The translations under genes were made by a program, and so were the position numbers. DNA of 64,000 bases. It comes from Cymbomonas tetramitiformis. Its lineage: Eukaryota > Chlorophyta > Pyramimonadophyceae > Pyramimonadales > Pyramimonadaceae. Below are positions 41,681 to 62,500 of the stretch, one piece after another; position 1 is the first letter of the stretch; the number at the start of each line of letters is the position of its first letter. The DNA lies in NCBI GenBank assembly GCA_001247695.2, contig LGRX02027676.1, forward strand, positions 23,074-87,073, read 5' to 3'. The notes under the pieces are model-generated. The model did no database searches and was not told where the DNA came from. It was given only the letters and a program-made list of their open reading frames with translations.

Positions 41681-41689
41681 TGAAAAAGA

Positions 41690-41781
41690 AAAAACCACGC
41701 CCGTCGGGCGTATGAGTAAATTAATTTCCCCGGCCCTACTCTGGGCCGGACCGCCACGATTGGCGGCCTTGATGGGACAAT
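41690..41781 (-). promoter_or_regulatory. LINE B 3'UTR with three hairpins
   Basis: Three stem-loops follow the stop: CCGCCA/TGGCGG, CGGCCC/GGGCCG and ACGCCC/GGGCGT (written on plus). The same three occur after copy C's stop. Such conserved 3' structures are the usual RT recognition site for target-primed reverse transcription. Confidence 0.7.
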
Positions 41782-44700
41782 TTATACTGGGTGGTTCTTA
41801 TCTTTCTCCTCCTCTTGTTTTTCTTGTCTGAGTTTTCTGTATAGCTGGTAGGTGCTGTGTGCATAGTTTACTGTCAGGTCGTGTATTCTCTGTAGTGCCT
41901 GTGTGGCCTCTTTTCTGTTGAGTCCAAGTTGCTCGAGTATGTCTTGGTTGTGTTTGTACACCGTGCCTGTTCTGCCCACTGCGAACACATGAAGTTTGGC
42001 ACGGAATCCGTGCCTGCGTAGCAATTGTAGCAGCGGTCCGTATTTCATGTATTTTTCCAGGAGTTTGGGTCCCCATTTTTCGTCATCGGTGTGGGCCACC
42101 TCTATGAGGTGTAGGTTTTTTACCCTTGCTGGTGCTTCCTGTTGTGTGCATTCCCATCCGTCCTCCAGGTCTTCTAGGCCCTCTATCATGACTATGTCTA
42201 CAAAACTTGGTATTGTGTCGGGCCCATCGTTTCTGCCTGGGTTGTCCTTCCCGTCGTGTCTGCATTGCCCCCTGGTGAGTATGTAATTTGGGAGTACCCT
42301 TGGCTTAACCCCTGGGTCCCTCTTTTTTTCAGTGTAGGCGAGTACTTTGCATCCCCCTTTCCTATGGTGGTCAAGTATGTGTTTTAGCTCATCTGCGTGG
42401 GCATCTGCCCTGTCCGAGAACATCCCTCGCATTTGTGGGTTGTTGCATCCACCTAGGGCGTGGCCTACCCTCATGAGGAAGCCCTTTGCGTAGTCCACCC
42501 CTTTGTGTCCACATCCTTCCAGGGTGCACTTCCCGCCCCCTCCGGCTGAGTTTTTCGCCGTCTCATAGTCTTGTGCTGGCAGTATTCTCAGTCTGCATTT
42601 GAGTATTGTTTTTCGTACCGCAAATGTGGCTCGTTTCCAGAAGCCGTTCACTACTTTGTGTAGTGGCGTGTCTCCTTTGAGGTGCTTCATTGTTTCGTTT
42701 AGCCAGCTGTCTGTGGTCCTGCCCTCTCGAACCGAGGGGGCGTTTCTTTTTTCCGTTCTGCTGTGTGCCATATCGTGTTTTCGCTGTTTCCATCTTGTTC
42801 TGGGCATCGGGTCCTCCATCACTGCATGGACTCTGGACTCCTCTGTGACACGGTCATGGTGAGCTTGTCTTTCATTTGTCGGCTTCCCTTGTGGCTTTTC
42901 CCGCTGCTCAATGAGTTCATTTAGCATGTCAAAAATTTCCTCGTCATTGTGTTCCTCTTGGGTCACTTCTAGTCTCTCCGCGAGCTCGTTGAGTTCCTTA
43001 AATATTTCCTCCCCTTCGGAGGGTGGGGGTGGTGTCCCTGCGGGTTCGGGTTCGTTTCCTCGGGTGGGGTCCCCTCTGCCCTCTGTTTCTTGGTATTCTT
43101 GGTGCTCCTGCACCTCTCGCATAAGGAGCATCTCCTCTTCCTCCGTTTGTTCCATCATGGCTTTTATTTGCCTGTCTTCTTCGTCTCGGGTCTGGTTGGC
43201 TTGCTGCTGCTGGTTGGGTACCAGGTCCCGTATTGTCGTTTGTTCCTCTTCAGTTTGTTGCGCTTGGTCATGGTGCGCCTCCCATCTGAAGTTGCGCTCA
43301 GTTTTCAGTTGGTGGGTCCAGGTTGAGGGTTCTCCCTGGAGGTCGGTCATTTTTGCTGAGAGTCTACTGTTTCCTTGGGCTTGCCGTTCACGGAGTAGTG
43401 TGGTTACGTATTTTTGTACCGCGAGTTTTCCTTTTAGCTCTCTGCTGTTCGAGTCCTCGTCTGGTATCATGGGTTTGACTTTTATTGTCTCGTTATTATC
43501 CCACGCTTCCGTGAGGGTTCCCGTAGTACAGGCTTGTTTGGCTGCCTCGTCGGCTTTTTCGTTCCCCACAATTCCCGTGTGTGCCTTGACTTTTAGCAGT
43601 GAGACAGTGTGCCCTGCTGCTACTAATGCCTCAATGTTGACCAGTATGGCATACAGGAGGTCCCTTTGCTGGTGGTGTTCCATGTTGTGGGGTTTCGTTC
43701 TCATGCTCTCCAGTTGTCTAATGGAGTTGGCACTGTCCGTGCAAATGGTGAGTCCGTTGCCACTTGGTGGTGGCGGGAGCGTCACCGCTTTTTGTATGGC
43801 GAGAAGTTCGGCTCTGTTCACCTCTTGGTCCTCGCCTTCCCATCGAATCATGTGGGCCTCCCCTTCCCCGGTCCTGGGGTCCCATACCGCAGCTCCTGAG
43901 GCCCATTCTTTGCCTCCTTCTTCTGTTTCTATCTCTCTTTTGCTCCCGTCCGTGTAAAGGTACGAGGTTGCCTTGTGTGCCCTTTGAGGGGAGGGGTACG
44001 TCAATTGGGTTGGTGTGTCCCTCGGGGCTCGGTTCCTGGGGTCCTCTGTTTGGTCTCTTGTCAATTCCCATCTCCTTCCTTGGGCTCCCGGTTCGTGTTC
44101 GGGCCAGAAGTCAGTGGGGTATCTGACAACTTTTGACCTCGCTACTTTGTCCCATATCGTTTGGGCGTCATTCTGTCTTGTAAGCCTGGTGTGTAAAGTG
44201 TTCGCTTCCACCACCTGTTGTACGGTGGGGGGGTGTATGTTCCATTTGCCTCCTCTGCTTCCGGGGAGGAGTTCCCATTTGGCTGGTCCTTCTTCCACGT
44301 GGAGGTGGCTGTCCTCCCACCAAGTTTCCACTTCCGCTTGTACGTTGCAGCACTGGGGGCAGAGGTCGTTCCGCAAGTGTGGCCCTGTGCTGCACATTCT
44401 TCCCATTGCATTCGTCATGTCCTTTGTCTTAATTTCCGGGAGTTCGTATCGCTGCCATGGTCTTGTGTCCACCACACAGTCTACACTGGGGGTGCGTCCT
44501 TCTTGGTTTGGTTCATTCGCATCGTGTAGGTTTGCCTCCCTCATCGGCTGTTTGACAGCTGAGGTGGTGCGGACCTTGCTTTGCGGGCAGGTTGTGAGTG
44601 CCCTCCTTATACAGTCTGCGGCAGTGTCTGGGTCCCCGCAGTGTGCTTGCCATCCTTCTTTGTTGGCCACTATCAGCACCCGGAGGTTCCAGTTGCATTG

Positions 44701-44826
44701 TTTCGCTTGTTGGTGGGTGGCACCCATCCAGTGGTCAGGGGGTAGAAACGTGAACTTGCCTTGTGGTATTTCTAATAGTTCGTGTATTAGGTGCCCTGCA
44801 TGTGCATTGTATAGCTTTCTGTACGG
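41782..44826 (-). pseudogene. LINE B ORF2 C-terminal part: Zn motif, RNase H, RLE-like
   Basis: This is the C-terminal half of the LINE polyprotein, separated from its N-terminal half by the 7-kb insertion. In order it has the end of the PCIF1-like domain (WNLRVLIVANK), a Cys-rich CPQCC motif, and RNase H with all four acidic residues (YTDGSK, NRAELLAI, CTDSANS, GNEKADEAAK). An acidic linker follows, then a C-terminal restriction-like-endonuclease candidate. That candidate has CTLEGCGHKG...HALGGC (CCHC-like), then FVDIVMIEG, LIEVAHTDD and EKYMKYGPLL. The frame is intact to the stop at 41782, so the break is only the insertion. Confidence 0.8.
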
Positions 44827-44859
44827 GGTTTTCTCATATGTCTGGTTTTCTCATATGTC
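44827..44859. repeat. 16-bp duplicated LINE sequence at the left insertion junction
   Basis: GGTTTTCTCATATGTC occurs twice, 44827-44842 and 44844-44859, separated by T, directly before the 7-kb element. Copy C has it once at the matching site. At the right junction the bases 'gggt', present in copy C between this sequence and 'acaccccg', are missing. Confidence 0.85.
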
Positions 44860-45567
44860 CACTGGGGTTGGCTGCCAACCCAGTTGCTTTTCTGAGATGC
44901 GTGAGTTACTTGGCTACAACTTCATGACGGCCCTCTTGGGCCTGAGATCTTCTTTGCAGCCAAGAAATGACCCCTTTGGGATGTATGCTTTCTTTGCTCT
45001 CTATGCGCAATTAATTTTCCGGTGTTGTATTACGAATGCGTCAGACTTTTTGACAGATTTTTACGTAAGACAGTCAGCAGTTTGTATGCCAGCTTTTCTC
45101 GGTTGGCCGGCTCCTGCGGCCTTGTATTACGAAAGCGTCAGGTTTTTTGACAGATTTTTACGTGAGACAGTGCATATCTTACTTATCACAGCCGTCCCAC
45201 TTGGGGCTGCTGACTGTTTCTGCATATCCGACTACCATATTGCACTAGTGACTGGTGAGTTTTCCGTGACTTATTCATCTTTGAAGCCGAACTATTTTAG
45301 TTTTTGCAAAGCCTACTGAGGAAGACCTGTTGGCACGGGTCGAAAAGCTTCTAGGTAGCCAAGCTAAAGCTCCGGTATATTTTCAGTATCGTTATTTGTA
45401 CAGAAGTATTTTTTATACATTATTACTTTGGTGCTATTCTTGGAAAACAGTTTATTATCACCTGCTTTTTCGAGCCGCGCGACCGGTCGTACTGTGTTGA
45501 CTTACCTACGTGCTTATTACTTTACCGCACATACCGTTTCTTACAGCGAAAGTTTTATTATATTAAC
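44860..45567 (+). repeat. Left terminal direct repeat (pLTR), 708 bp
   Basis: Starts CACTGGGGTTGGCTGCC and ends GTTTTATTATATTAAC. It is the same length as 51170-51877 and no differences were seen by eye. It contains an internal duplication of about 55 bp (TGTATTACGAA.GCGTCAG / TTTTTGACAGATTTTTACGT) at about 45026 and 45123. It also has a candidate hammerhead ribozyme at 45311-45360. A 140-codon frame inside (44899-45319) is present in both repeats, but its composition does not suggest a protein. Confidence 0.93.
45311..45360 (+). ncRNA. Candidate minimal type I hammerhead ribozyme, left repeat
   Basis: The order of core elements is right: stem I strand GCCTA, core CTGAGGA (CUGANGA, 45316-45322), an extra A, stem II GACC/GGTC with a 10-nt loop, core GAAA (45342-45345), then AGCTTC. 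A second stem I strand TAGG (45352-45355) pairs with CCTA. The predicted cleavage is after UUC at 45351. Stem III would be only two base pairs, as in the minimal hammerheads known from Penelope-like elements. An extra A after A9 is known from one viroid hammerhead. Confidence 0.55.
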
Positions 45568-45758
45568 TTTTACTTGCAGCAGTTTTTGGGACGTGTTTCG
45601 CACGATCTCCCTCGACACTGACTATTCAGATCCAGCGGGCTAGTTCTCTAGGTACCGGATCGACGTTTGATCTCACATAAACGTTCAGGAGAAAACAGAA
45701 AAAAGAACACAAAAAAAGAAACATATTCAAACTCAAATTTACCATACTAAGTTCTCTA

Positions 45759-47006
45759 ATGGCATCACAACAGCAACCACAGCAGGAAGGGACTCAAGTT
45801 GGAGTCCCAGCCGCCACGGGATTTATGGCGGCGCCCCAACAAAGTCAGCAGGCTCCAGTTACTCCAGTTCCACAACCCCAACACGCGATTGGACAGTATA
45901 CTCCGAATGCTTTTTCTGCATACAACCCAGCCTTCACCACACCAACACCGTCAACCCCCAGTACTGGTGGATTGCAGTACCAACTTCCTCTCCAGCAACC
46001 AGTGGCGCCGCAGCAGAATGCGGCAGGTTTTCAAGTTAACAATGGACCACCAATTGACCCGCGCACCGGTGGCCCTTATGTCTCCCGATTTAAGAAAGAT
46101 TTTGAGGACGAGAAACAAAAAACTGCAAACCTGGAAGCTCAGATTCAAAAAATGGCAGCTGAGCGGGCAGAACTCCAGGCTCAACTACTTCGCGCGGAAA
46201 ATGCAGTGTCCGAGGCAGAACGGACCGTCCTTTTCGAGAAAAGACTGGCAGAGGCACTTCAGGCACAGAAGGCGGATGGCAACCTCGCAGCAATGGGAGG
46301 GGCACTGGCGGATGCGGCGGGAATTACTCGCGCGAAAAAAGCGGTTCACTTTGAACCACTGGCAGAGGAGGTGGTGGTGGTTGACGATGAAGGTGTGAAG
46401 AAACGGAAGAAGTCGAAGGGCAAGAAGAAGAAGAAGAGGTACAGCAGTTCTGATTCCTCCTCGGACAGTGACAGCAGCGCTGACAGGAAGGCACGTCAGC
46501 GCCGGAAACGGAAGCAAGGCGCAGAGTTGACCCGCGCCGCCAAATCAATGAGCGCTGGCAGTGGCGGCGTACGAGGAGGCGGCGGCGGCAGCACTGGTGA
46601 CAGCCCGGATCCGAAGAACGCCGCTCTTCGTGCGATGCTCAACGCACAGGAGGCGGTTCTCACCGCCCAGCGAGAACAAGCCAGACTGGAGGCCGAGGCC
46701 CACGCAGCAGCGCTTCACACGGCTGCGGCCTCAGGCGCAGCAGTTCTACCTGCAGTGACAACCCCGACCGTCCGTACAGGGATCCCACCCCCACCCTCAG
46801 TTACTGCGAAGAAGGTGAGCGTGATCGAAGCGAAGGAGATGTCGAGACTTTTCAGGCTGAAACCGAGCTGGGAGGCACTGCGCCTAGAACTTGTGAAATT
46901 TCAGGTGGTCGACCCCAGAGCTGCAATGGAGATGACAAAGACTGAGATCCTATTGGCAGCAACCGAAGCCCACAATGGGGGCTTCCTCGATCTCCGCAAT
47001 TTATAG
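45759..47006 (+). CDS. ORF1 of the 7-kb element (gag-like, coiled coil, basic)
   Basis: A 415-aa protein from ATG 45759. Residues 1-105 are Gln/Pro-rich and probably disordered. Residues about 108-175 are a clear coiled coil (RFKKDFEDEKQKTANLEAQI...). A lysine-rich, probable nuclear-localisation stretch follows (KKRKKSKGKKKKKR), then Ser/Asp repeats, a second Ala-rich helix, and a C-terminal block (MSRLFRLKPSWEALRL). No zinc knuckle is present. Coiled-coil ORF1 proteins occur in some Penelope-like elements. The frame ends at a single TAG (47004-47006), and the same frame continues without another stop into ORF2, so readthrough could make a fusion. Confidence 0.75.
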   Translation: MASQQQPQQEGTQVGVPAATGFMAAPQQSQQAPVTPVPQPQHAIGQYTPNAFSAYNPAFTTPTPSTPSTGGLQYQLPLQQPVAPQQNAAGFQVNNGPPIDPRTGGPYVSRFKKDFEDEKQKTANLEAQIQKMAAERAELQAQLLRAENAVSEAERTVLFEKRLAEALQAQKADGNLAAMGGALADAAGITRAKKAVHFEPLAEEVVVVDDEGVKKRKKSKGKKKKKRYSSSDSSSDSDSSADRKARQRRKRKQGAELTRAAKSMSAGSGGVRGGGGGSTGDSPDPKNAALRAMLNAQEAVLTAQREQARLEAEAHAAALHTAAASGAAVLPAVTTPTVRTGIPPPPSVTAKKVSVIEAKEMSRLFRLKPSWEALRLELVKFQVVDPRAAMEMTKTEILLAATEAHNGGFLDLRNL

Positions 47007-50000
47007 CGGGGACGCACCCAGCGACAACGGCTGAAAAAAGTGCAGGGGATCCTGCGCTTAGTGGAGGAGGCTGTCGAGGAAGTTGTCGCTGGATGTGAAG
47101 GGGAGGGGAGGGAAGGGAAGGTGGAGACGGCTGTTACCTTATCGATGTTTGGTTCGCTGATGTTCTTGGAGTGGGCCGGAATGCAGCCAAGGTGGTGGCT
47201 GCGAAGATTTATACCGTGGTGGGATGCACTGACGGTGGAGGATTTACGTAGCTGGTTTTCAGGGGGGGCGCGCTACGGGACTTATGTCCTAGCGTCAATG
47301 GGATCGCGGAAGACTTATGTTGGGAAGTTTTGGTCGGGACCTAGGGCGAGATTGCTGGCGCACTTCAACACTGCGCTGGACCCTGCGAGAAAGGGAGGGA
47401 AGAGGCTGTATGGTGGGCTGAGGGCGAGGGGACTGCATACTTATTTTATGTTGCCACTGAGAACGTACAGGGGGCAGTCTGACTGCAACGCGGACGAGAA
47501 GCTTATTATTGCGAGGACACAGAAGCTTGGGGACACTTTGAACACGGTGGGCGTGCGAAACCGTAGAGTGTCGGCGGGCCGCACACATTATCGCATGACG
47601 TGTCGACGTCGACGCCGAGCCGCCGCTCGACTTGGTTCTCGCAGGAACATGTGGCACAGAGCCGCGGGTGACGGTCGCTGGAGGGCAAAGTACGGAAGCA
47701 CAGAAACTCAGGGCTACTCGGGTGGTGCGCTGCACCTTGCACTTCGTCGATTGTCGAAGGGCGAGGCGCTCTGCGAGGGAGAGTGGGACCTGCAGAGCAC
47801 AGCTGGGGTCTGGAACTTCACGGACTGGGCAGCAGTGAAGCTGAAGTATGGCCAGTCGCAGGCAGTGCTTTTGGACGAGACAGGAGAGACAGCACTGCAG
47901 CAGACTCTCAGCCAGCTCCTCCCAGTACTTAGGAGGGACAATGCCAGGCTTCGACTGCTGTCGATCGTGGTTACAGACTCAGACCTATGGGCTCAGCGAG
48001 AGGTAAAGCAGCTGGTGAGACGCCCGAAACAGGCATGGAGGAGAGTCCCCAAGTACACCCTTGACAGACTCGTGCGATTATGGCAGTCAGCGCCCTCAGT
48101 CACAGACAAGAAGCAGCTTGCCAGGATCAGAACTTCCTTAGCGGCCACCGCGAAGAAGTCCCATGATTTTATTTTCAGACACTCTTTTATCTGCAGAGTT
48201 CGTTTTCCAGAGGCTCTTAACACGTCAGTAATGAAAGGGTTTCTTCTCCAGTGCGTCGATGCGAAGTTTGCCGAGGGAGCTACGAGAAATTTCGTTCGCA
48301 GAAGAGTGCGGGTGGTAAGAACGGCCAAACGCAAGATCTCTGATGTGTTCTGCAACCTTAGCAAAGTTTCTTTATGTACTGACAATGCTTACTGCCGATG
48401 TGACAGACTGAGTGCGGATCTGCCCCGCCGGAATGGGCACGTGTGCTTTCGCACTACCGAACTTTCGGGGGAATTCCTGCCACTTAACAGGAGCTTGCGC
48501 GACACTCCAGCGCAGATCGAAGAGACGGCTGATTTTTTGCTCGCGAGTACTACCGATTTTCTTAGTCAACTCACCTTCTTTGAAACGGTTTCAACTGCAG
48601 CGATTCGGAGGCTTCTCCCCTGGCAATGCTCTGTGGACGGCGGTGCTCGAGTTACTGTGATTGAAAACTTTTCTGACGAGACCTTTTTTGTAGCAGTTTG
48701 CGGTGCTGAGGGACTGAAGGTCCAAGTGACCTGGCACAGATTTATTTTTCTGCTTAAGCGACTCGATGCCTGCGGTGTTGCTCGGGGTCGGACAAAGACA
48801 GCAGTGACAGAGCTTATCCGCGAGCTGGTGCGGAGACTGTGTGCCTGGTCGCAGCTTGTTACGCAGGATTACTGGATTACACCTTACTTTGTTCAGGACG
48901 CGATTCGCTTCTGTTTTTCACTGCTTGATGAGCTTTTTGCCTCGCCGCTAGACGTCAACCTGAACAGCGCAATGTTTTGCACCCCATATAGCGAGGACAC
49001 TATTTTCGGAGCTGTTGACAATGCTTACAGAATTTTATGGCACGTTCTTGCCCTCGGGAATCCTATCTATACAGTGTCACATATTCGCAGGTGTATTGCC
49101 CACGCGATTCTTTCCGCACGCACGACACGAAAACCCGTTCGAATTGTGCTCGTGGTTCCATACTGGGAGCGGTGGGATGAGTGTGATGGGGTTGAACTGG
49201 TGTGCTTGTTGCAAAAGAAGAAGTTCAAATTCTTGGCTCCGCAGAGCGCTCTAGGCTTCACTGATCGGTCGACAGGAGCAAAGTTCGACGTGGGTATTCT
49301 CTTGATCCAGAACAGAGCCGCGGCGAAGCTGAAACCAGTTACTGATCAGGGACTTTCCAGACTTTCTAGAGTAGTGGCGAGTTCGGTCGATGACCGGGGC
49401 GTGATGTATTCGGCTGAGTGGGGTTTGGACTTCTGCTGGAGGTTGGCTATGCAGGTCCGTCCACAGGCTCGTGGATTTGCGGAGGAGGGCCGGGTCTTGG
49501 ATCGTTTTCGAAAGCTAATGAAGGGAGGTGTGGCGGCGGGACTCCTCCTGCAATCTTTTGGCGGGGACGTTGCTGCGGCGGTGATGAAAGTGGCGGGTAA
49601 TGAGAAGCAAGCTGCTACCGAAACCGGCGGGATCCCGGCCCTGACAGACGTTTGGCAACTGGCGACGAAGATGTCTGGCTTGGCTCGGGGACCACTTGAC
49701 AGGAACGTCGCGGTGGGATTTGGCGTGTGCTGCCAGGTCTACCAAGGCTGGCTCCGTGAGGAACGTGACGGCGGAGGCTATGAGAGGGTGACAATGGAGA
49801 GTGTGGAAGTTGTGAGGAAGATGCGGCTGAGTTTCAGAGCGGCGGGACTTGATCAGGTGGCAACGTTTTTCACTGATGGCGCTTTCGGTACGCTCTATCT
49901 GCTGCTGAAGCACAAGGATTCCTCGTTGTGGGAGAAGAGGCGCCCGGTGGTTCCTTGCTTTGCCTCACCGGACAGAATGCTTCAAAACCGGGTTGGCAGA

Positions 50001-51032
50001 GCACTGTGCTTCCTGATTGGCGGGCTGACGGGACACTTCAACGTGGCGGCTACGCAGGAAATTGTTGGACGGCTCTCTTTGTTTAACTCGGCGATCGAGG
50101 CTGGGGACACAGTGATGGCGGCCGGGTTCGATGTGAAAGAGATGTATGTGAGACTGAGGCCGTCTGTGATGCTCTCAGCGGCTGAGCTAGTTGTGACCAC
50201 GGCGATGAAGGAGTGTGCAGGAATTTTGGTGAACACAAGAGGCAGGAAGGGAGTGTCTTGGTACGAGGCAGGCACCCCGAGGCGAGTGGCTGTGAGAATG
50301 ACGGCGGCTCATATTCTGGCCGGAGTGAGGTTTATCCTTGACAACGGCTTTCTATTTGTCGGCGGACACCTGGTGAGGCAGACTTGTGGCATAGGAATTG
50401 GTGGCGGCGCCAGCCCGGGATTGGCACAGTGTGTGTGTGTCTACGGCGAGCGGCAATGGACACAATCACTCGGGGCGGATCGGAGACTGACGGGCGTGAA
50501 AATCGTGGGCACGCGGCTGATGGACGATTGCCTTCTTTTGGTCACGGGCAACGGCGATGCGGACAGCGGGGCACTGGATGAGATGCGACGAGTGTTTGGC
50601 GGGTATCTTCAGGATTGTTACCCGGAAGGCGTGACAGTGGAGCAAACCTCCGAGGGTCTTAGTTGGGTGTTCTGCGGAATGTTGCTTTCGGTGGACACGT
50701 GCGGGGTCCGGGCAAAGTCGATCACTAAGAATGTCCAGGCGGGAGCGAGCTCGGGACAGTTGACCTTCTTCCCGTTTGTGGCTTTTGACTCTGACAGTGG
50801 CCGGGTGCAAAAAATGGCGAGTACTCTTAATGCCCTCTACAGGATTGAGAGGCACTGCACGGAGGACCACTTGAAGGCTGCGGCGATCGTGGATGTGCTT
50901 CGGGAGCTGAGATGGCAGGGCTACCCAAAAGGCTGGCTCTTCGAGGCGATCGAGAAAATGGTGGCTAGGTCCCCTCTCGGCTTCTGGAATCGGCTGCACA
51001 AAAGGCTTGAGTTGGCTGGGATGAGGCTTTGA
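47007..51032 (+). CDS. ORF2: GIY-YIG endonuclease - PCIF1-like MTase - reverse transcriptase
   Basis: This is the replication protein of the 7-kb element. It is open from the codon after TAG 47004, but the first ATG is about 140 nt in, at MFGSLMFLEW. Numbering here is from GTG 47040. GIY-YIG domain 78-170: YGTYVL, KTYVGKF, R102, H108, E153 and N168, the expected nicking-endonuclease set. A long middle region has Cys residues near 440-460 (CRCDRL). PCIF1-like domain about 610-770: DELFASPLDV (S635), GNPIY (N674), RIVLVVPYW, then VGILLIQNR. RT about 960-1240: motif A FDVKEMY (D1031), motif B QTCGIGIGGGASPGLAQ (from 1114), motif C LMDD (D1162-D1163). No RNase H or integrase is seen. The frame is intact. 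Confidence 0.82.
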   Translation, partial: RGRTQRQRLKKVQGILRLVEEAVEEVVAGCEGEGREGKVETAVTLSMFGSLMFLEWAGMQPRWWLRRFIPWWDALTVEDLRSWFSGGARYGTYVLASMGSRKTYVGKFWSGPRARLLAHFNTALDPARKGGKRLYGGLRARGLHTYFMLPLRTYRGQSDCNADEKLIIARTQKLGDTLNTVGVRNRRVSAGRTHYRMTCRRRRRAAARLGSRRNMWHRAAGDGRWRAKYGSTETQGYSGGALHLALRRLSKGEALCEGEWDLQSTAGVWNFTDWAAVKLKYGQSQAVLLDETGETALQQTLSQLLPVLRRDNARLRLLSIVVTDSDLWAQREVKQLVRRPKQAWRRVPKYTLDRLVRLWQSAPSVTDKKQLARIRTSLAATAKKSHDFIFRHSFICRVRFPEALNTSVMKGFLLQCVDAKFAEGATRNFVRRRVRVVRTAKRKISDVFCNLSKVSLCTDNAYCRCDRLSADLPRRNGHVCFRTTELSGEFLPLNRSLRDTPAQIEETADFLLASTTDFLSQLTFFETVSTAAIRRLLPWQCSVDGGARVTVIENFSDETFFVAVCGAEGLKVQVTWHRFIFLLKRLDACGVARGRTKTAVTELIRELVRRLCAWSQLVTQDYWITPYFVQDAIRFCFSLLDELFASPLDVNLNSAMFCTPYSEDTIFGAVDNAYRILWHVLALGNPIYTVSHIRRCIAHAILSARTTRKPVRIVLVVPYWERWDECDGVELVCLLQKKKFKFLAPQSALGFTDRSTGAKFDVGILLIQNRAAAKLKPVTDQGLSRLSRVVASSVDDRGVMYSAEWGLDFCWRLAMQVRPQARGFAEEGRVLDRFRKLMKGGVAAGLLLQSFGGDVAAAVMKVAGNEKQAATETGGIPALTDVWQLATKMSGLARGPLDRNVAVGFGVCCQVYQGWLREERDGGGYERVTMESVEVVRKMRLSFRAAGLDQVATFFTDGAFGTLYLLLKHKDSSLWEKRRPVVPCFASPDRMLQNRVGRALCFLIGGLTGHFNVAATQEIVGRLSLFNSAIEAGDTVMAAGFDVKEMYVRLRPSVMLSAAELVVTTAMKECAGILVNTRGRKGVSWYEAGTPRRVAVRMTAAHILAGVRFILDNGFLFVGGHLVRQTCGIGIGGGASPGLAQCVCVYGERQWTQSLGADRRLTGVKIVGTRLMDDCLLLVTGNGDADSGALDEMRRVFGGYLQDCYPEGVTVEQTSEGLSWVFCGMLLSVDTCGVRAKSITKNVQAGASSGQLTFFPFVAFDSDSGRVQKMASTLNALYRIERHCTEDHLKAAAIVDVLRELRWQGYPKGWLFEAIEKMVARSPLGFWNRLHKRLELAGMRL

Positions 51033-51169
51033 GAACCCTTCAGCAGACGTGGTAATTTGAGTGCCCCCTCACGGGGGTAATGGAGCAGACTACAGGGTGG
51101 TGAGTGGTGTGATCCAGCTGATGGTGGTAGCTGGACCGGGTCTGCGGGTGGTTGGCCCTCGGGCCAGTG
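51033..51169 (+). promoter_or_regulatory. Short 3' region of the 7-kb element with three hairpins
   Basis: Between the ORF2 stop and the right repeat lie three perfect stems: CCCCC/GGGGG (tcac loop), CCAGCT/AGCTGG and TGGCCC/GGGCCA. They may serve RT binding or 3' end formation; function is inferred. Confidence 0.55.
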
Positions 51170-51877
51170 CACTGGGGTTGGCTGCCAACCCAGTTGCTTT
51201 TCTGAGATGCGTGAGTTACTTGGCTACAACTTCATGACGGCCCTCTTGGGCCTGAGATCTTCTTTGCAGCCAAGAAATGACCCCTTTGGGATGTATGCTT
51301 TCTTTGCTCTCTATGCGCAATTAATTTTCCGGTGTTGTATTACGAATGCGTCAGACTTTTTGACAGATTTTTACGTAAGACAGTCAGCAGTTTGTATGCC
51401 AGCTTTTCTCGGTTGGCCGGCTCCTGCGGCCTTGTATTACGAAAGCGTCAGGTTTTTTGACAGATTTTTACGTGAGACAGTGCATATCTTACTTATCACA
51501 GCCGTCCCACTTGGGGCTGCTGACTGTTTCTGCATATCCGACTACCATATTGCACTAGTGACTGGTGAGTTTTCCGTGACTTATTCATCTTTGAAGCCGA
51601 ACTATTTTAGTTTTTGCAAAGCCTACTGAGGAAGACCTGTTGGCACGGGTCGAAAAGCTTCTAGGTAGCCAAGCTAAAGCTCCGGTATATTTTCAGTATC
51701 GTTATTTGTACAGAAGTATTTTTTATACATTATTACTTTGGTGCTATTCTTGGAAAACAGTTTATTATCACCTGCTTTTTCGAGCCGCGCGACCGGTCGT
51801 ACTGTGTTGACTTACCTACGTGCTTATTACTTTACCGCACATACCGTTTCTTACAGCGAAAGTTTTATTATATTAAC
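51170..51877 (+). repeat. Right terminal direct repeat (pLTR), 708 bp
   Basis: Copy of 44860-45567 at an offset of 6,310 bp. It ends GTTTTATTATATTAAC directly against LINE B sequence (ACCCCGACCCCG). No differences from the left repeat were seen by eye. Confidence 0.93.
51621..51670 (+). ncRNA. Candidate minimal type I hammerhead ribozyme, right repeat
   Basis: Identical to the left candidate: CTGAGGA, GACC/GGTC stem II, GAAA, and CCTA/TAGG stem I. Cleavage at both copies would release a unit of 6,310 nt, one repeat plus the interior, with defined ends. Confidence 0.55.
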
Positions 51878-54800
51878 ACCCCGACCCCGAACACCGGTTC
51901 TTGTGTGGTGGTGGCCGCTATGGCAAAGTCCAGTGCCTTTTTGAGGTCCTGTGGCGTGTATTCTGGGTTGAACTGGTAGGCTCCCAGTTTCATCCAGTTT
52001 GCTGTCCAGGCTGAGCCTCTGGCCCCGAACACCTTGTCTCTGTCATACTTGGCGTAGTACGTTGTGGTGTTGTGGTGGACATTGAGGGGTGAGGCGAACA
52101 GTTCGGTGGTAATTCCGAATGCCTGTTGTAGTGCCCTTTGCATCTGGGCAGGGAATGTCCAATGGTTTTGCAAGTTCTTTTTTCGTTCCTCCTTTTCTTC
52201 TTTGCTTGAGTACCTAATGAGGAGGTGACCTATTTCCTCCTCGAACGTGGAGACCTGTATTTTGTGGTCCTCCCACATTTCAGTGCGTAGTGTGCGCTGG
52301 TGTGGGGTTTGGTGTTCTGTGGTACCCACTGCCTGGGTGTACCTTTCGTGTAGTCTGAGAAGCTTTTCTTTCGTGAGGGTGCCTATGTATTTCCCATTCC
52401 TGTGGTAGCTGTGGGCGAGTTCCCCCTCCAGCCGTATCTGGCAGTGGTGCCCTCTGTTGTCCACAATGTCTTGTTCTGGGTTGGTTTCTGTCGGGTCCAG
52501 TGTTAGGTTCTCTGCATGTAGTGTGGGCCAGGCCTGTCCCAGGTGCGGCCTCCCGGCCAGTACTTCTCTGAGGCCTGTGGGGTGGGTCACCTGGGAGCCC
52601 CTTGCTCGCAGTCTTCTATTCAGGGTTAGGAAGGTGGTCGCGCTTTGGCCCCTTCGTTTGGCTAGTTTCAGGTAGTCAGTTATGGTTTCCCTTGTACTCC
52701 ACGAGTAGGAGTCATCCCCCTCTGAGTGTCTCCACTGGGTTCTGTACTGCGTCACCAGGGAGTGTGGGTCTGTTGGGTCAACGAGTAGGGTCCTCATTGC
52801 CACAATCTCTTTCGGCTTGTCTATCGTTCGGCCTTTCTCGAAGCCTGTCTCAAGTTTTTCGGCCATGGGGTCTATTTCATCTATCCATTTAGTTTGTGAG
52901 CGTGTGTGGAGGGGCTGAGGTTCTTCCTCTTCCTCCCCCGGTACTGGGCCGGTATTCTCCGTTTCGTTAATCCTTGTAAGCGGGTGCAGGGAGAGTTGCC
53001 TGTGAATCTCTTCCCTGGGGACCAGCCTCGCCTCCCATTCCGTCATTTTTGCCCTCAGCTGCTCCGAGTTGAGGCGTGGGAGGTTAGTTCGTATTGCGTG
53101 GGAGTCCAGCGGCCCCTCCCTGGGCATGCTCCTGTATTGTTGCTTCAGTCGTCTGTTTGTGAGACTGTCGTAGAAGTCCCCCGGCTTCGCTATGTCCCTC
53201 GGTTGGGCTTCACATAGGTATGGGTATAGGTGTGCCAGGCCTTTTGCTATGGCACTGCGGTCTGTGTTGAGGGTTGCATCTGTGCATTGTTCCCTGACGT
53301 TCACCTGGCTAATCGCATGTTGGCCATCTCGGGTAGTAAGGAGCGCTAGGTCTGGGAAGTGTGTAAAAAGTTTGAGGCACGTTGTGAAATTTATCGCAGT
53401 TGGCGTGTCCTTGGGTATTGTGAGCCTGGCAGTTTGGTCTGTGCACATTGCCTGCCAGTCTGGAGGCATCGGTATATCCCCATCAATTATTTTGCCTGCT
53501 TTCGTTTTTCTTGTTGTTCCCTCCATTTCTTTGTCGGACTTCTTTCTGGTTGCCCCTTTTAGCTGTTCCATTATCTTTGGTATTGGGGTTTGGAGTTGTC
53601 TGAGCATCCCCTCCGTCCCCTGGGGCGTAATGTTGTATCTGAGTAGGGCATTGAGTTTCCTCAGTGTGTTGTGTTTTGTTTGGTGCCCCCCCCAGAGTTT
53701 GTCGAGGTCTGTACAGTTCCTGCGTGTGGTGCTGTGGTATTCTACCAGTCCTCTGGTGGACCTGCTGACGTGGGACATTCTGAGTCTCGACTTTAGGTTT
53801 ATTTGCCTCCACGCCGGGCCTCGTACCGTTCCCTTGTCCTCTTCGCTGTGCATGGCCTCCAGTAGTCCGCTCCAAATCGACTGGGCGTAGACTGCTTGGA
53901 GTGGCACCATTCCCAAGCCGAACTTTTCCTTTTCCTGTGTGGTAAAAATGTTTGGCGTTCCGTTGCGGGGCAGACCCTGTATGTTCTTTGTGGCCCCCCC
54001 TATTATTTTGTTGAAGTCGTCTATTTCGCCCGCTGTGTATAGCCCTAGGTGCAATCCATATCTGAATTTCCCCAGTATTGCGGAGTGAAGGGAGTATTCC
54101 TTTTGGTCAGGTGTTAGAGGGGAGCGTAGTAGGGCTTGTATTCTGTGGTTCATCTCTTCCTTAGCGGCCTCTTTCTCTTTGTCCCACCTGCCTGTGAATG
54201 CAAGTAGTACTCCCAGGTATTTGTACGTGTCGTCTGGCTTGAGTACCTTGAAGTGGCTTAGCTTACCGTCCAGTCCCAGCATTTTGAGGTCTTTATGGAG
54301 TTGTTCGGGTATGGAGACCCCATTTTTTATGCCGGTTATGGCTGACTTGGTGAGGTTAATTTTGAGTTCACTCCACTGTGAGAATGCCTGTAGTTTGTGT
54401 AGCTGAGCCCTCATGTGGCAAATCGTAGGGCATAGTATGAGCAGGTCGTCAACGAACGCCCCTGCTGTCGTCCTGAGGGGGCCTAGCCTTTCTTGTTCTG
54501 CTGCATACTTGTGTTGGTACCCATGCTCTCCCACCTCTAGCCATCTTAACAACGGTTCCTGGTATATTATGAAAAGGAGGGGACTCATGCTGTCTCCCTG
54601 GAGGAGTCCTCTTTGCACCTGTACAGTTTTGTGTGAGGTTTCCCCTCCTACTCTGGTGTTCATGGACATTGTGTCATGGCTTTGTGTACCTAGGACATCC
54701 CGCACCACCTGTGTGAGTTCGTCGGGTATTCCAAGGTACTGCATCGTATGGAGTAGTTTGTTGTGGTCCACTGAGCCGTACGCGTTTTCGAAGTCTACAT

Positions 54801-56423
54801 ACAGGCCATGTAGTTCTCGTCCTGAGACGTTTGCATCCTCAATCGCATTGGTTACTCTGGTGAGTTGTCGAAGCGTGTTCCTTTTTTCCCTTGAGCCTTC
54901 CTGCGCCTGGGCTAGTATTCCTTGCGTTTCGCAGAACGTGGAGAGCATGTTTGCTATCTGTGAGGTGTACAGTTTGAATACCCCTTCGAGCAGGGCTATG
55001 GGTCGGTAATTTTGCTGTAAGGTGACATCCCCTTTCTTGTGGTGGAAGCAGAATGTCCCTTTTTTCCAGGTGAGAGGGACATGCTTGCTGTTCCACATTT
55101 CCAGCATGAGTGCGTGTAGTGCATCATGGAAGTCCTCTGGCATGTACTTAAGAATTTCGTTCGGGGTCCTGGTGGGGCCTGGTGCTTTGTTGTTGTTTAG
55201 GGTGTGTACCGCTTTGCTGTAGCCCTGTCGACTTATTGTGAGGTCCAGCCCACTGGGGTCTGGTCTTGGCGTTTTTATGAGGCGCTCCCTGTGAGCTGGG
55301 TCTTCCCATGGCGGAGGTTTCGAGTCGGGTGGACTTCGGTGCTCCATCCTGTATGGTGCCGAGTGAGCCATGTGGTCTGCTAGTGCGTTAGCGATGTTCC
55401 CGTGGCCTACAGCCAGGTTGCCCTCTCTGTCCTGTAGGGCCTGTATGTTCGCCGTGGGGGCATGGCCTGTTTCTTGCGCCTTGGTATATATTCTTTTGTG
55501 GTATCTTTTTGGTTGTTCCAGTATTCCTTTACGGTTTTGTCATTGTGTCTTTGCTTGGCTTGTTTCCAGTGCTGTTTTACTACCTTGTGCGCCACCGACC
55601 TTTCTTTTTTGGCCTCCTCAGTAAGCCACGACACCCATTCTTTTGCATCTGCATTGTCCCTGTCCGTTGGGCCTTTCATTTCTCCCTCTTTCAGGCTTCG
55701 GAGGGTTGAGTGTTCCGTGTGCGGGTTTCGTAGGTGTCGTTTGGTTTGCTTGTGCCTCCGCATCTTGAGTATTGCGGCGTCCCTTTCCTTTCTGTCCTTT
55801 TTGCTCATTAGCAGGTCTTTTCCCACTCGGCTGGGGGTGCCTCCAACTGTAGTAGTTGGCAGTTCGTCGTCCTGTAGCGTACATTTGTTCGCCCTGGTGA
55901 GTATGTTTAGTACTGTTTCCCCTGCTCTGTCTATGGTGGCGTGCGCCACTTGCCTGTTGTCCTCTTCCCTGCATTGTGTGGCTATCTCTGTTATGCGTTT
56001 CAGTTGAGCGGTTCTGGCATAGTCGTGTGTCCTGAGGAGGACGCTTTGGAGTGTTTCCCTGTGTGTTTTGTTCAGGGGCGTGTCCAGCTTTACGTGCCCT
56101 GGTTGGGGGTCGCGGTCCACATATGGTTCGTGGGTGTCTATGCTGTCCAACTGGAGGGTTGCTAGGCTCACCATCTCGTGGTCACTCGTGTGGTGCCGGG
56201 TGAGGTGTGTGGTGTCCCCCATCTCGTATTGCGCCTGCTTGTTCCTTGGTGCAAGCCATCTGTCAATGTTCCTGTGTTTCGCCCAGTTCAGTGTGGTATC
56301 GACTGGCGGGCCTACATTGTGGAGGTCTAGCTCCTCCGCAAGTTTCGTCCATTGCTTGTCGGTTTTTGTCATCCCTTTACCTGTGCTGGTGTTGCTCGCA
56401 TTGAGGTCTCCTCCTATGACCAC
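51878..56423 (-). pseudogene. LINE B ORF2 N-terminal part: endonuclease, RT, part of PCIF1-like domain
   Basis: Reads from VIGGDLNASNTS (end of the EEP endonuclease, with TSDHEMV) to a 1-nt deletion near 55505, where the frame shifts (NNQKDTTKEY instead of NNQKRYHKR). It then runs as a continuous 1,167-codon frame from 55371 through the RT (YVDFENAYGSVDH, QRGLLQGDSMSPLLF, AFVDDLL) and the first part of the PCIF1-like domain (ELFASPLNV, FNPEY). It breaks after VFGVGV, where the 7-kb element begins. With the frameshift, the truncated endonuclease and the insertion, this copy cannot be active. Confidence 0.85.
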
Positions 56424-56485
56424 ATGCTCGTTCGCCTTTCCCGCAGTTTTCCTGAGTAAAGAAAAAAAGAAAAAGAAAAAACCAC

Positions 56486-56568
56486 GCCCGTCGGGCGTAT
56501 GAGTAAATTAATTTCCCCGGCCCTACTCTGGGCCGGACCGCCACGAGTGGCGGCCTTAATGGGACAAT
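56486..56568 (-). promoter_or_regulatory. LINE C 3'UTR with three hairpins
   Basis: Same three stems as LINE B. The middle loop and flanks are identical, and the CCGCCACGAGTGGCGG stem differs from B's by one loop base and stays paired. Confidence 0.7.
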
Positions 56569-59500
56569 TTATACTGGGTGGTTCTTATCTTTCTCCTTCT
56601 CTTGTTTTTCCTGTCTGAGTCTTCTGTATAGCTGGTAGGTGCTGTGTGCATAGTTTACCGTTAGGTCATGTATTCTCTGTAGCGCTTGTGTGGCCTCTTT
56701 TCTGTTGAGTCCAAGTTGCTCGAGTATGTCTTGGTTGTGTTTGTACACCGTGCCTGTTCTGCCCACTGCAAACACATGAAGTTTGGCACGAAATCCGTGT
56801 CTGCGTAGTAGTTGTAGCAGCGGTCCGTATTTCATGTATTTTTCCAGGAGTTTGGGTCCCCACTTTTCGTCATCGGTGTGGGCCACCTCAATGAGGGGTA
56901 GGTTTTTTACCCTTGCTGGTGCTTCCTGTTGTGTGCATTCCCATCCGTCCTCCAGGTCCTCTAGGCCCTCTATCATGACTATGTCTACGAAACTTGGTAT
57001 TGTGTCGGGCCCATCGTTTCTGCCTGGGTTGTCCTTCCCGTCGTGTCTGCATTGTCCCCTGGTGAGTATGTAATTTGGGAGTACCCTTGGCTTAACCCCT
57101 GGGTCCCTCTTTTTTCCAGTGTAGGCGAGTACTTTGCATCCCCCCTTCCTATGGTGGTCAAGTATGTGTTTTAGCTCATCTGCGTGGGCATCTGCCCTGT
57201 CCGAGAACATCCCTCGCATTTGTGGGTTGTTGCATCCACCTAGGGCGTGCCCTACCCTCATGAGGAAGCCCTTTGCGTAGTCCACCCCTTTGTGTCCACA
57301 TCCCTCCAGGGTGCACTTCCCACCCCCTTCGGCTGAGTTTTTCGCTGTCTCATAGTCTTGTGCTGGCAGTATTCTCAGTCTGCATTTGAGTATTGTTTTT
57401 CGTACCGCAAATGTGGCTCGTTTCCAGAAGCCGTTCGCTACTTTGTGTAGTGGCGTGTCTCCTTTGAGGTGCTTCATTGTTTCGTTTAGCCAGCTGTCGG
57501 TGGTCCTGCCCTCTTGTACCGAGGGGGCGTTCCTTTTTTCCGTTCTGCTGTGTGTCATATCGTGTTTTCGCTGTTTCCATCTTGTTCTGGGCATCGGGTC
57601 CTCCATCATTGTATGGACTCTGGACTCCTCTGTGACACGGTCATGGTGAGCTTGTCTTTCATTCGTCTTCCCTTGTGGCTTTTCCCGCTGCTCAATGAGT
57701 TCATTTAGCATGTCAAAAATTTCCTCGTCATTGTGTTCTTCTTGGGTCACCTCTAGTCTCTCCGTGAGCTCGTTGAGTTCCTTAAATATCTCCTCCTCTT
57801 CGGAGGGTGGGGGTGGTGCCTCTGTGGGTTCGGGTTCGTTTCCTCGGGTGGGGTCCCTGCTGCCCTCTGTTTCTTGGTGTTCTTGGTGCTCCTGCACCTC
57901 TCGCATAAGGAGCATCTCCTCTTCCTCCGTTTGTTCCATCATGGCTTTTATCTGCCTGTTTTCTTCGTCTCGGGTCTGGTTGGCCTGCTGCTGCTGGTTG
58001 GGCATCAGGTCCCGTATTGTCGTTTGTTCCTCTTCAGTTTGTTGCGCTTGGTCATGGTGCGCTTCCCATCTGAAGTTGCGCTCAGTTTTCGGTTGGTGGG
58101 TCCAGGTTGAGGGTTCTCCCTGGAGGTCGGTCATTTTTGCTGAGAGTCTACTACTTCCTTGGGCTTGCCGTTCACGGAGTAGTGTGGTTACGTATTTTTG
58201 TACCGCGAGTTTTCCTTTTAGCTCTCTGCTGCCCGAGTCCTCGTCTGGTATCATGGGTTTGACGTTTATTGTCTCGTTATTATCCCACGCTTCCGTGAGG
58301 GTTCCCGTAGTACAGGCTTGTTTGGCTGCCTCGTCGGCTTTTTCATTCCCCACAATTCCCGTGTGTGCCTTGACTTTTAGCAGTGAGACAGTGTGCCCTG
58401 CCGCTACTAATGCCTCAATGTTGACCAGTATGGCATACAGGAGGTCCCTTTGCTGGTGGTGCTCCATGTTGTGGGGTTTCGTTCTCATGCTCTCCAGTTG
58501 TCTAATGGAGTTGGCACTGTCCGTGCAAATGGTGAGTGCGTTGCCACTTGGTGGTGGCGGGAGAGTCACCGCTTTTTGTATGGCGAGAAGTTCGGCTCTG
58601 TTCACCTCTTGGTCTTCGCCTTCCCATCGAATCATGTGGGCCTCCCCTTCCCCGGACCTGGGGTCCCATACCGCGGCCCCTGAGGCCCATTCTTTGCCTC
58701 CTTCTTCTGTTTCTATCTCTCTTTTGCTCCCGTCCGTGTAAAGGTACGAGGTTGCTTTGTGTGCCCTTTGAGGGGAGGGGTACGTCAATTGAGTTGGTGC
58801 GTCCCTCGGGGCTCGGTTCCTGTGGTCCTCTGTTTGGTCTCTTGTCAATTCCCATCTCCTTCCTTGGGCTCCCGGTTCGTGTTCGGGCCAGAAGTCGGTG
58901 GGGTATCTGACAACTTTTGACCTCGCTACTTTGTCCCATATCGTTTGGGCGTCATTTTGTCTTGTAAGCCTGGTGTGTAAAGTGTTCGCTTCCACCACCT
59001 GTTGTACTGTGGGGGGGTGTATGTTCCATTTGCCTCCTCTGCTTCCGGGGAGGAGTTCCCATTTGGCTGGTCCTTCTTCCACGTGGAGGTGGCTGTCCTC
59101 CCACCAAGTTTCCACTTCCGCTTGTACGTTGCAGCACTGGGGGCATAGGTCGTTCCGCAAGTGTGGCCCTGTGCTGCACATTTTTCCCATTGCGTCCGTC
59201 ATGTCCTTTGTCTTAACTTCCGGGAGTTCGTATCGCTGCCATGGTCTTGTGTCCACCACACAGTCCACGCTAGGGGTGCGTCCTTCCTGGTTTGGTTCAT
59301 TCACATCGTGTAGATTTGCCTCCCTCATCGGCTGTTTGACAGCTGAGGTGGTGCGGACCTTGCTTTGCGGGCAGGTTGTGAGTGCCCTCCTTATACAGTC
59401 TGCAGCAGCGTCTGGGTCCCCGCAGTGTGCTTGCCATCCCTGTTTGTTGGCCACTATCAGCACCCTGAGGTTCCAGTTGCATTGTTTCGCTTGTTGGTGG

Positions 59501-62500
59501 GTGGCACCCATCCAGTGGTCAGGGGGTAGAAACGTGAACTTGCCTTGTGGTATTTCTAATAGTTCGTGTATTAGGTGCCCTGCATGTGCATTGTATAGCT
59601 TTCTGTACGGGGTTTTCTCATATGTCGGGTACACCCCGACCCCGAACACCGGTTCTTGTGTGGTGGTGGCCGCTATGGCAAAGTCCAGTGCCTTTTTGAG
59701 GTCCTGTGGCGTGTATTCTGGGTTGAACTGGTAGGCTCCCAGTTTCATCCAGTTTGTAGTCCAGGCCGAGCCTCTGGCCCCGAACACCTTGTCTCTGTCA
59801 TACTTGGCGTAGTACGTTGTGGTGTTGTGGTGGACATTGAGGGGTGAGGCGAATAGTTCGGTGGTAATTCCGAATGCTTGTTGTAGTGCCCTTTGCATCT
59901 GGGCAGGGAATGTCCAATGGTTTTGCAAGTTCTTTTTTCGTTCCTCCTTTTCCTCTTTGCTTGAGTATCTAATGAGGAGGTGCGCTATTTCCTCTTCAAA
60001 CGTGGAGACCTGTATTTTATGGTCCTCCCACATTTCAGTGCGTAGTGTGCGCTGGTGTGGGGTTTGGTGGTCCGTGGTACCCACTGCCTGGGTGTACCTT
60101 TCGTGTAGTCTGAGAAGCTTTTCTTTCGTGAGGGTGCCTATGTATTTCCCATTCCTGTGGTAGCTGTGGGCGAGTTCCCCCTCCAGCCGTATCTGGCAGT
60201 GGTGCCCTCTGTTGTCCACAATGTCTTGTTCTGGGTTGGTTTCTGTCGGGTCCAGTGTTAGGTTCTCCGCATGTAGTGTGGGCCAGGCCTGTCCCAGGTG
60301 CGGCCTCCCGGCCAGTATTTCTCTGAGGCCTGTGGGGTGGGTCACCTGGGAGCCCCTTGCTCGCAGTCTTCTTTTCAGGGTTAGGAAGGTGGTCGCGCTT
60401 TGGCCCCTTCGTTTGGCTAGTTTCAGGTAGTCCGTTATGGTTTCTCTTGTACTCCACGAGTAGGAGTCATCCCCCTCTGAGTGTCTCCACTGGGTTCTGT
60501 ACTGTGTCACCAGGGAGTGTGGGTCTGTTGGGTCAACGAGTAGGGTCCTCATTGCCACAATCTCTTTCGGCTTGTCTATCGTTCGGCCTTTCTCGAGGCC
60601 TGTCTCAAGTTTTTCGGCCATGGGGTCTATTTCATCTATCCATTTAGTTTGTGAGCGTGCGTGGAGGGGCTGAAGTTCTTCCTCTTCCCCCTCCTGTACT
60701 GGGCCGGTATTCTCCGTTTCGTTAATCCTTGTGAGCGGGTGCAGGGAGAGTTGCCTGTGAATCTCTTCCCTGGGGACCTGTCTCGCCTCCCATTCAGTCA
60801 TTTTTGCCCTCAGCTGTTCCGAGTTGAGGAGTGGGAGGTTAGTTCGTACTGCGTGGGAGTCCAGCGGCCCCTCCCTGGGCATGCTCCTGTATTGTTGCTT
60901 CAGTTGTCTGTTTGTGAGATTGTCGTAGAAGTCCCCCGGCTTCGCTATGTCCCTCGGTTGGGCTTCGCATAGGTATGGGTATAAGTGTGCCAGGCCTTTT
61001 GCTATGGCACTGCGGTCTGTGTTGAGGGTTGCATCTGTGCATTGTTCCCTGACGTTCACCTGGCTAATCGCATGTTGGCCATCTCGAGTAGTGAGGAGCG
61101 CTAGGTCCGGGAAGTGTGCAAAAAGTTTGAGGCACGTTGTGAAGTTTATCGCAGTTGGCGTGTCCTTGGGTATTGTGAGCCTGGCAGTTTGGTCTGTGCA
61201 CATCGCCTGCCAGTCTGGAGGCATCGGTATATCCCCATCAATTATTTTGCCTGCTTTCGTTTTTCTTGTTGTTCCCTCCATTTCTTTGTCGGACTTCCTT
61301 CTGGTCGCCCCTTTTAGCTGTTCCATTATCTTCGGTATTGGGGTTTGGAGTTGTCTGAGCATCCCTTCCGTCCCCTGGGGCGTGATGTTGTATCTGAGTA
61401 GGGCATTGAGTTTCCTCAGTGTGTTGTGTTTTGTCTGGTGCCCCCCCCAGAGTTTGTCGAGGTCTGTACAGTTCCTGCGTGTGGTGCTGTGGTATTCTAC
61501 CAGTCCTCTAGTGGACCTGCTGACGTGGGACATTCTGAGTCTCGACTTTAGGTTTATTTGCCTCCACGCCGGGCCTCGTACCGTCCCCTTGTCTTCTTCG
61601 CTGTGCATGGCCTCCAGTAGTCCGCTCCAAATCGACTGGGCGTAGACTGCCTGGAGTGGCACCATTCCCAAGCCGTACTTTTCCTTTTCCTGTGTGGTGA
61701 AAATGTTTGGCGTTCCGTTGCGGGGCAGGCCTTGTATATTCTTTGTGGCCCCCCCTATTATTTTGTTGAAGTCGTCTATTTCGCCCGCTGTGTACAGCCC
61801 TAGGTGCAATCCATATCTGAATTTCCCCAGTATTGCGGAGTGAAGGGAGTATTCCTTTTGGTCAGGTGTCAGAGGGGAGCGCAGCAGAGCTTGTATTCTG
61901 TGGTTCATCTCTTCCTTAGCGGCCTCTTTCTCTTTGTCCCACCTGCCTGTGAATGCAAGTAGTACTCCCAGGTATTTGTACGTGTCGTCTGGCTTGAGTA
62001 CCTTGAAGTGGCTTAGCTTACCGTCCAGTCCCAGCATTTTGAGGTCTTTATGGAGTTGTTCAGGTATGGAGACCCCATTTTTTATGCCGGTTATGGCTGA
62101 CTTGGCGAGGTTAATTCTGAGTTCGCTCCACTGTGAGAATGCCTGCAGTTTGTGTAGCTGAGCTCTCATGTGGTAAATCGTAGGGCATAGTATGAGTAGG
62201 TCGTCGACGAACGCCCCTGCTGTCGTCCTGAGGGGGCCCAGCCTTTCTTGTTCTGCTGCATACTTGTGTTGGTACCCGTGCTCTCCTACCTCTAGCCATC
62301 TTAGCAACGGTTCCTGGTATATTATGAAAAGGAGGGGGCTCATGCTGTCTCCCTGGAGGAGTCCTCTTTGCACCTGTACAGTTTTGTGTGAGGTTTCCCC
62401 TCCCACTCTGGTGTTCATGGACATTGTGTCATGGCTATGTGTACCTAGGACATCCCGCACCACCTGTGTGAGTTCGTCGGGTATTCCAAGGTACTGCATC

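Follow-up and report, generated by a model that had tools for sequence, protein, structure and literature searches.

PCIF1 has been described as an enzyme of the host, and the question raised by the present locus is what a domain resembling it might do inside retroelements. The locus lies in the 851.7-Mb assembly of the green alga Cymbomonas tetramitiformis, where a stretch of 64,000 nucleotides (positions 23074-87073 of its contig; hereafter the window, whose own positions are used throughout) contains a 7-kb element inserted in a LINE. An earlier note on this DNA had proposed that the second open reading frame (ORF2) of the element and the LINE each carry a PCIF1-like domain. Reports on the effect of PCIF1 in mRNA stability and translation have been called conflicting (PMC11506431), and a survey places PCIF1 only in eukaryotes, with no word beginning with "transpos" in its main text (PMC8868631). 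No report of a PCIF1-like domain in Penelope-like elements (PLEs) or LINEs was found among the open-access papers searched, which were covered mostly by title and the start of the abstract. A conserved relative of PCIF1 in a recently mobile retroelement, together with its counterpart in an unrelated LINE, would represent a natural experiment on the value of such a domain to an RNA, with the transcript of the element itself as a well-defined candidate for the substrate.

The 7-kb element (44847-51877, plus strand, ~7.03 kb) is a PLE, and lies within a minus-strand LINE copy (41682-56456), the empty site being provided by a second LINE copy. Its ORF1 (45759-47006, plus strand, 415 aa) ends with TAG at 47004-47006 and had no Pfam match above cut-off; ORF2 (47040-51032, plus strand, 1330 aa, frame open from 47007) encodes, in this order, a GIY-YIG endonuclease, a linker, the PCIF1-like domain and a reverse transcriptase (RT). 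Three features of the PLE class were observed, namely a telomerase-related RT (49665-50909, plus strand), in which FDVKEM at 50127 and RLMDD at 50514 are presumably RT motifs A and C, an N-terminal GIY-YIG endonuclease (47262-47609, plus strand; GTY at 47277 and YVG at 47316), and pseudo-LTRs (pLTRs) formed from a 5'-truncated head-to-tail unit of variable length. Assignment of the endonuclease leans mainly on its motif, because the Pfam GIY-YIG model matched one of the 11 members of the ORF2 protein alignment (0.0033); GTY...YVGK was seen in 20 of 21 genomic copies, and in two deep families (L047 and L048), where the G of GIY is replaced by S or A, the region still aligns with that of the window at 41-43% identity. 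A Zn-finger-like motif, C-x-C...LPR..GHVC.RTT.L (48393-48446, plus strand), precedes the PCIF1-like domain; it is present in all 21 copies, is kept across the aligned PLE families, and is, we believe, reminiscent of one in other PLE proteins.

Repeat comparison placed the upstream pLTR at 44857-45567 (plus strand, 711 bp), with one mismatch to the downstream pLTR at 51167-51877 (plus strand), which is also the 3' end of the element. An upstream pLTR was measured in 11 of 15 copies, window included, and ranged from 143 to 935 bp (700-725 bp in four); of the remaining copies, L029 was cut by a contig end, and none was found in the stretch examined for L031, L035 and L042. An LTR retrotransposon was also considered, and is argued against by repeat lengths that vary from copy to copy. 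No hammerhead ribozyme was detected in the pLTR by Rfam (E ≤ 5), and no clear target-site duplication was found among 11 copies examined; junctions lacking such duplications have been described for PLEs (PMC3846280). At the left junction (44830-44860), a 13-base string (TTTCTCATATGTC) occurs in the LINE sequence and again immediately before the element, and the full unit starts with TTTTACTTGCAG directly 3' of the upstream pLTR (45568 onward), which resembles a 3' splice site. Ten stop-free full-length copies, including that of the window, share 98-100% identity, and the element is recently mobile, since near-identical intact copies occupy different sites. The published long-read Cymbomonas assembly is 914.3 Mb in size, with 43.6% unclassified repeats (PMC10675990).

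ORF1 and ORF2 lie in one frame, and in all 17 copies read only one stop codon stands between them (13 TAG and 4 TGA). All 15 copies from five families have this one stop (13 TAG and 2 TGA), and it is TGA in L047 and L048, in which at least 90 aa are open upstream in the piece read. A shorter upstream frame was seen in L035 and L042 (204 and 342 aa, respectively). Coding similarity extends beyond the stop, the first ATG of ORF2 in the window family being residue 47 of the open frame. The stop codon is followed by a stem with a nested hairpin (47004-47100, plus strand, stop included), a putative readthrough signal. Across the five families, the main stem begins ~11 nt past the stop, has weaker outer pairs before it and encloses the nested hairpin (z -3.2 to -4.5), and seven of its pairs are changed on both sides among five sequences (shuffle mean 3.4, 3/500; slid controls 0-1). 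Of the two deeper families, one has a stop region that folds well (z -4.94) and the other has no unusual fold (z -0.33), which leaves the structure in six of seven families by z-score. The shared frame, the single stop in 17 of 17 copies and the hairpin after it in most families suggest a programmed stop-codon readthrough that may give a minor ORF1-ORF2 fusion. Gag-pol of some retroviruses is such a minor fusion, made by programmed readthrough.

The PCIF1-like domain of ORF2 (aa 608-760; 48861-49319, plus strand) contains ELFASPLD (48930-48953), NPIY (49059-49070), RIVLVVPYW (49140-49166) and LLIQN (49299-49313). These are the motif strings that the earlier note had read here, and their order is that of the LINE domain (minus strand), which has ELFASPLNV at 59833-59859, NPEY at 59713-59724, GVGVYPTY at 59620-59643 and LRVLIVAN at 59446-59469; the spacing of 39 residues given for them was inexact, as the start-to-start distance from ELFASPL to NPxY is 43 residues in ORF2 and 45 in the LINE. 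PF12237 (PCIF1_WW) matched a 186-aa piece of ORF2 with E = 1.7e-5 and 24.9 bits (curated cut-off, 31.1), and the whole of ORF2 with 3.9e-4. It was also detected in eight of 11 members of the ORF2 protein alignment at E ≤ 0.1 (best 9.2e-7), and in all six excised PLE domains at the lax limit of E ≤ 10 (best relative 4e-8; window 1.7e-5). Half of the ten protein relatives of the ORF2 domain, nine of which are from C. tetramitiformis, have a precomputed PF12237 annotation. Gene models of four family members (P0009, P0011, P0028 and P0037) are without parts of the domain.

From the domain alignment, PLE rows shorter than 120 aa (P0009 and P0011) and the LINE rows P0018, P0023, P0024 and P0025 were left out; P0030, P0034 and P0036 were included in addition. 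E, FA, P, D, FG, NP and a few further columns are common to all six aligned sequences from PLE, LINE and PCIF1. The N and P of NPxY are shared by PCIF1 and both retroelements; the NPPF catalytic motif of PCIF1, disruption of which lowers its activity (PMC6318281), is absent, being NPIY in ORF2 and NPEY in the LINE. NPIY was found in 20 of the 21 genomic copies (five families), the exception being KPIY, and also in the deep families L047 and L048, and P0030 has NPVY. No WW domain was found in ORF1 or ORF2 (Pfam, E ≤ 1). AlphaFold2 (ORF2 aa 190-880, 11 sequences) gave no confident methyltransferase (MTase) fold (mean pLDDT 49.1, below 50 at aa 605-769), and Foldseek with that low-confidence model returned no matches at E ≤ 0.001. 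Searches of the PDB with the ORF2 sequence, with the 11-member ORF2 alignment and with the PLE domain profile alone found no PCIF1 chain; the LINE domain profile found PCIF1 there (3.9e-4). No viral or bacterial relatives were confirmed in viral or genome contigs by scans that each used one or two peptide patterns.

The LINE encodes RVT_1 and RNase H, and an APE-type endonuclease is present in P0024 and P0025, which are related to it. Two copies in the window (41682-56456 and 56469-64000) are ~97% identical and stand head to tail, with 12 bp between the alignments, and a third copy (19666-24554) is 88% identical. In copy 2 (ORF 56569-63978), the PF12237 domain lies between RT and RNase H (59404-60006, minus strand; 1.6e-17), and in copy 3 it was located by HMM match at 23884-24486 (plus strand). 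The domain of copy 1 is cut by the PLE, its first part being at 51878-52251 (minus strand) and the rest within 41785-44850. Because LINE copy 2 gives the empty site, the insertion can be placed between 59630 and 59631 by that copy, in the Y codon of GVGVYPTY, and hence inside the LINE's own PCIF1-like domain. Between copies 2 and 3, the LINE domain has a dN/dS of 0.048 (50 synonymous and 12 nonsynonymous changes), and other copy pairs gave 0.041 to 0.057; one short piece of the domain gave 0.17 (3 synonymous and 2 nonsynonymous). PF12237 is abundant in the genome, with at least 151 matches (best 150 of 2094 candidates scored), the listed ones being above the curated cut-off. The four that were read (L043-L046) are LINE-like in domain sequence and form a further LINE-like PF12237 branch (VFASPLNVHSHT, NPEY, PAW); L043 is the best genome match among the matches listed (80 bits).

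How the two domains are related was addressed by searches in both directions among 475 window ORFs and 37 proteins, in which the LINE-domain HMM scored ORF2 at 54 bits and the ORF2-domain HMM gave 67 and 79 bits for the two LINE domains that are complete in the window, with no match outside the two families at E ≤ 10. In the profile-profile alignment that the earlier note had proposed, the PLE-LINE score was 94.7, above 100 of 100 column shuffles (maximum 21.7), and the scores to PCIF1, whose profile consists of two PDB fragments only (6irv and 6irx, which we take to be of vertebrate origin), were 42.7 for the PLE and 52.6 for the LINE (maxima of 100 column shuffles, 26.2 and 20.1, respectively). 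Mean identity was 24.8% for PLE-LINE (21.0-29.6), 20.3% for PLE-PCIF1 (16.2-24.8) and 23.3% for LINE-PCIF1 (20.3-28.9); the PLE and LINE domains are thus somewhat closer to each other than to PCIF1, with overlapping identity ranges and a PCIF1 profile two fragments deep. The ORF2 domain thus has a homolog in the LINE domain and a more distant one in PCIF1. By the reciprocal HMM matches and the shuffle-controlled profile scores, two retroelements of different classes carry related PCIF1-like domains, as the earlier note had claimed; it was also right that their hosts differ in both endonuclease and RT, i.e., GIY-YIG and telomerase-like RT in the PLE, and RVT_1 with RNase H, plus the APE type in relatives, in the LINE.

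It is plausible, if not quite the reading we would favor, that the PLE and LINE domains go back to a single retroelement lineage transferred from one class to the other, for instance by template switching, and not to two separate captures of a host PCIF1. The PLE-LINE profile score and mean identity, both higher than those to PCIF1, point in this direction; however, the identity ranges overlap, PCIF1 is represented by two fragments, the position of the domain differs (before RT in the PLE, behind it in the LINE), and the tree has no root, with neither an outgroup nor an algal host PCIF1. This reading concerns the origin of the domain, and is compatible with the explanation of its function preferred below.

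To assess retention, the genome was searched with ORF2 (best 35 of 2315 candidates scored, all 35 being matches) and with the divergent P0008 (best 45 of 2191 candidates scored). Twenty of the 34 other ORF2 matches were read, which together with the window gave 21 copies in five PLE families with ORF2 identities of 66-86%; the RTs of the two deeper families, L047 and L048, are 37% and 35% identical to that of the window. The GIY-YIG region, C.C...GHVC, the PCIF1-like domain with NPIY and the RT are kept in all seven full-length families read; relatives without the domain could be missed, as the copies came from ORF2-type queries ranked by score. The possibility, raised by the earlier note, that the domain might be a one-off fails because it is retained in these seven families, found with ORF2-type queries, and is constrained. 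A profile search with MTase plus RT yielded 19 proteins, 16 of which were named Cymbomonas; the metagenomic protein P0034 (JGI, 661 aa) shows 33% identity across MTase and RT.

The domain is more conserved than the RT as a whole, and is among the best-kept parts of ORF2. MTase identity exceeded RT identity in all 15 protein pairs (mean +10.8 points), and the window shares 48-50% of MTase residues with L047 and L048, compared with 35-37% in RT and the 41-43% of the GIY-YIG region; between L047 and L048 themselves, the three regions are all alike (GIY-YIG 68%, MTase 66%, RT 64%). Constraint in the PLE was judged by dN and identity, since dS was saturated or undefined in most MTase pairs. MTase dN was lower than RT dN in eight of ten family pairs and above it in two, and lower than GIY-YIG dN in nine of ten and above it in one. 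In several pairs, conservation of the RT core (aa ~950-1150) is equal to that of the domain or higher (92-94% vs 82-86% in L009-L017).

As to function, we hold with moderate confidence that ORF2 carries a divergent SAM-dependent adenine-N6 methyltransferase module of the PCIF1 superfamily (PF12237-like), which would act on the element's own RNA; it is the substrate, the catalysis and the benefit of the module that we infer. Readthrough of the one stop codon would yield ORF2 as part of an ORF1-ORF2 fusion, and in the element's RNP the module would bind SAM and methylate the RNA of the element at an adenosine, most plausibly the cap-adjacent one, which is the first candidate because PCIF1 methylates there. 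The full-length RNA so marked might be stabilized, translated or kept from silencing ahead of reverse transcription at the target, and the unrelated LINE of the same genome may use a related module, placed after its RT. Evasion of decapping, suggested in the earlier note, would be another candidate benefit. Several results speak against this reading, namely NPIY in place of NPPF, the low-confidence AlphaFold2 model with its empty Foldseek result, the PLE domain profile that did not find PCIF1 in the PDB, the negative WW search, and an RT core that matches or surpasses the domain in conservation in several pairs. A more far-reaching version, which we regard as rather unlikely, is that two retroelement classes of one alga each encode an epitranscriptomic writer of the PCIF1 type, which was passed between them as a module and marks their RNA cap-adjacent in cis; in the PLE, programmed readthrough would join it to the ORF1 protein, and every RNP would therefore contain the writer in a small, fixed proportion.

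The foremost alternative is a pseudo-enzyme, in which a PCIF1-like pocket is kept without catalysis and, by binding the cap or RNA, gives the ORF2 protein a preference for its own transcript. The change of the third residue of the motif in both lineages (NPIY and NPEY), with the rest of the domain highly conserved, is consistent with this, but 20 of 21 copies, as well as L047 and L048, retain both the N and the aromatic Y, which would be hard to explain if only binding mattered; we consider the pseudo-enzyme somewhat unlikely. Still less probable is a DNA methyltransferase whose targets would be adenines in the cDNA or the integrated copy. Methylated adenines do occur in the DNA of green algae. 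DIRS1-like retrotransposons have an MT domain (PMC3266345). However, the sole significant family of the ORF2 domain is PCIF1_WW, an RNA enzyme family, and the failure of any DNA adenine methyltransferase family, the Dam type included, to match the domain in Pfam or PHROGs at the E-values used makes DNA the less likely substrate. Chance resemblance, or a captured fragment without function, might be read from the Pfam score that the window copy obtains as a single sequence, below the curated cut-off, and from the incomplete gene models, but is very improbable given the shuffle controls, the reciprocal HMM matches and the high conservation of the domain in the seven full-length families read.

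The RNA-methylating module preferred here has partial parallels in known systems. PCIF1/CAPAM, the cap-specific m6Am methyltransferase, belongs to the Pfam family matched by the ORF2 domain, and the two share, in the same order, an ELFASPLN-like motif, D..FG and the N-P of the catalytic tetrapeptide; unlike PCIF1/CAPAM, the ORF2 domain (~20% identical to the PDB fragments) has NPIY for NPPF, was found without a WW domain, and is a putative module fused to GIY-YIG and RT. An N-terminal GIY-YIG is a feature of Chlamys/Naiad type PLEs, which the present element resembles in having GIY-YIG before a telomerase-like RT and pLTRs of variable length, whereas the extra PCIF1-like domain between GIY-YIG and RT, an ORF1 that shares the frame of ORF2 up to one stop codon, and the lack of a hammerhead ribozyme by Rfam set it apart. 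The LINE of the same genome has the related domain with the same motif order and NPxYT, but differs in NPEY, the RVT_1-type RT, the position of the domain after RT, and the low mean identity (24.8%). DIRS1-like elements likewise have an MT domain of unknown function in a retroelement polyprotein, but are tyrosine recombinase elements with MT after RNase H (PMC3266345), and the ORF2 domain, in contrast, has no match to DNA adenine methyltransferase families. NADAR domains, found in Ectocarpus Gypsy elements and oyster Tx1 LINEs and suggested to process element RNA, are another case of a nucleotide-metabolism domain in unrelated retroelement classes (PMC12477816), although the PCIF1-like domain is of a different family and chemistry.

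A minor observation concerns the history of the PLE families. Between L009 and L012, the MTase segment has a dS of 3.1, compared with 0.8-1.3 in the other five segments, and the MTase dN/dS of 0.024 for this pair was not relied on because of that dS (3.09). Against L017, MTase-segment dS is saturated for both L009 and L012, and RT dS is 1.2-1.3. It is possible that L009, L012 and L017 are mosaic families.
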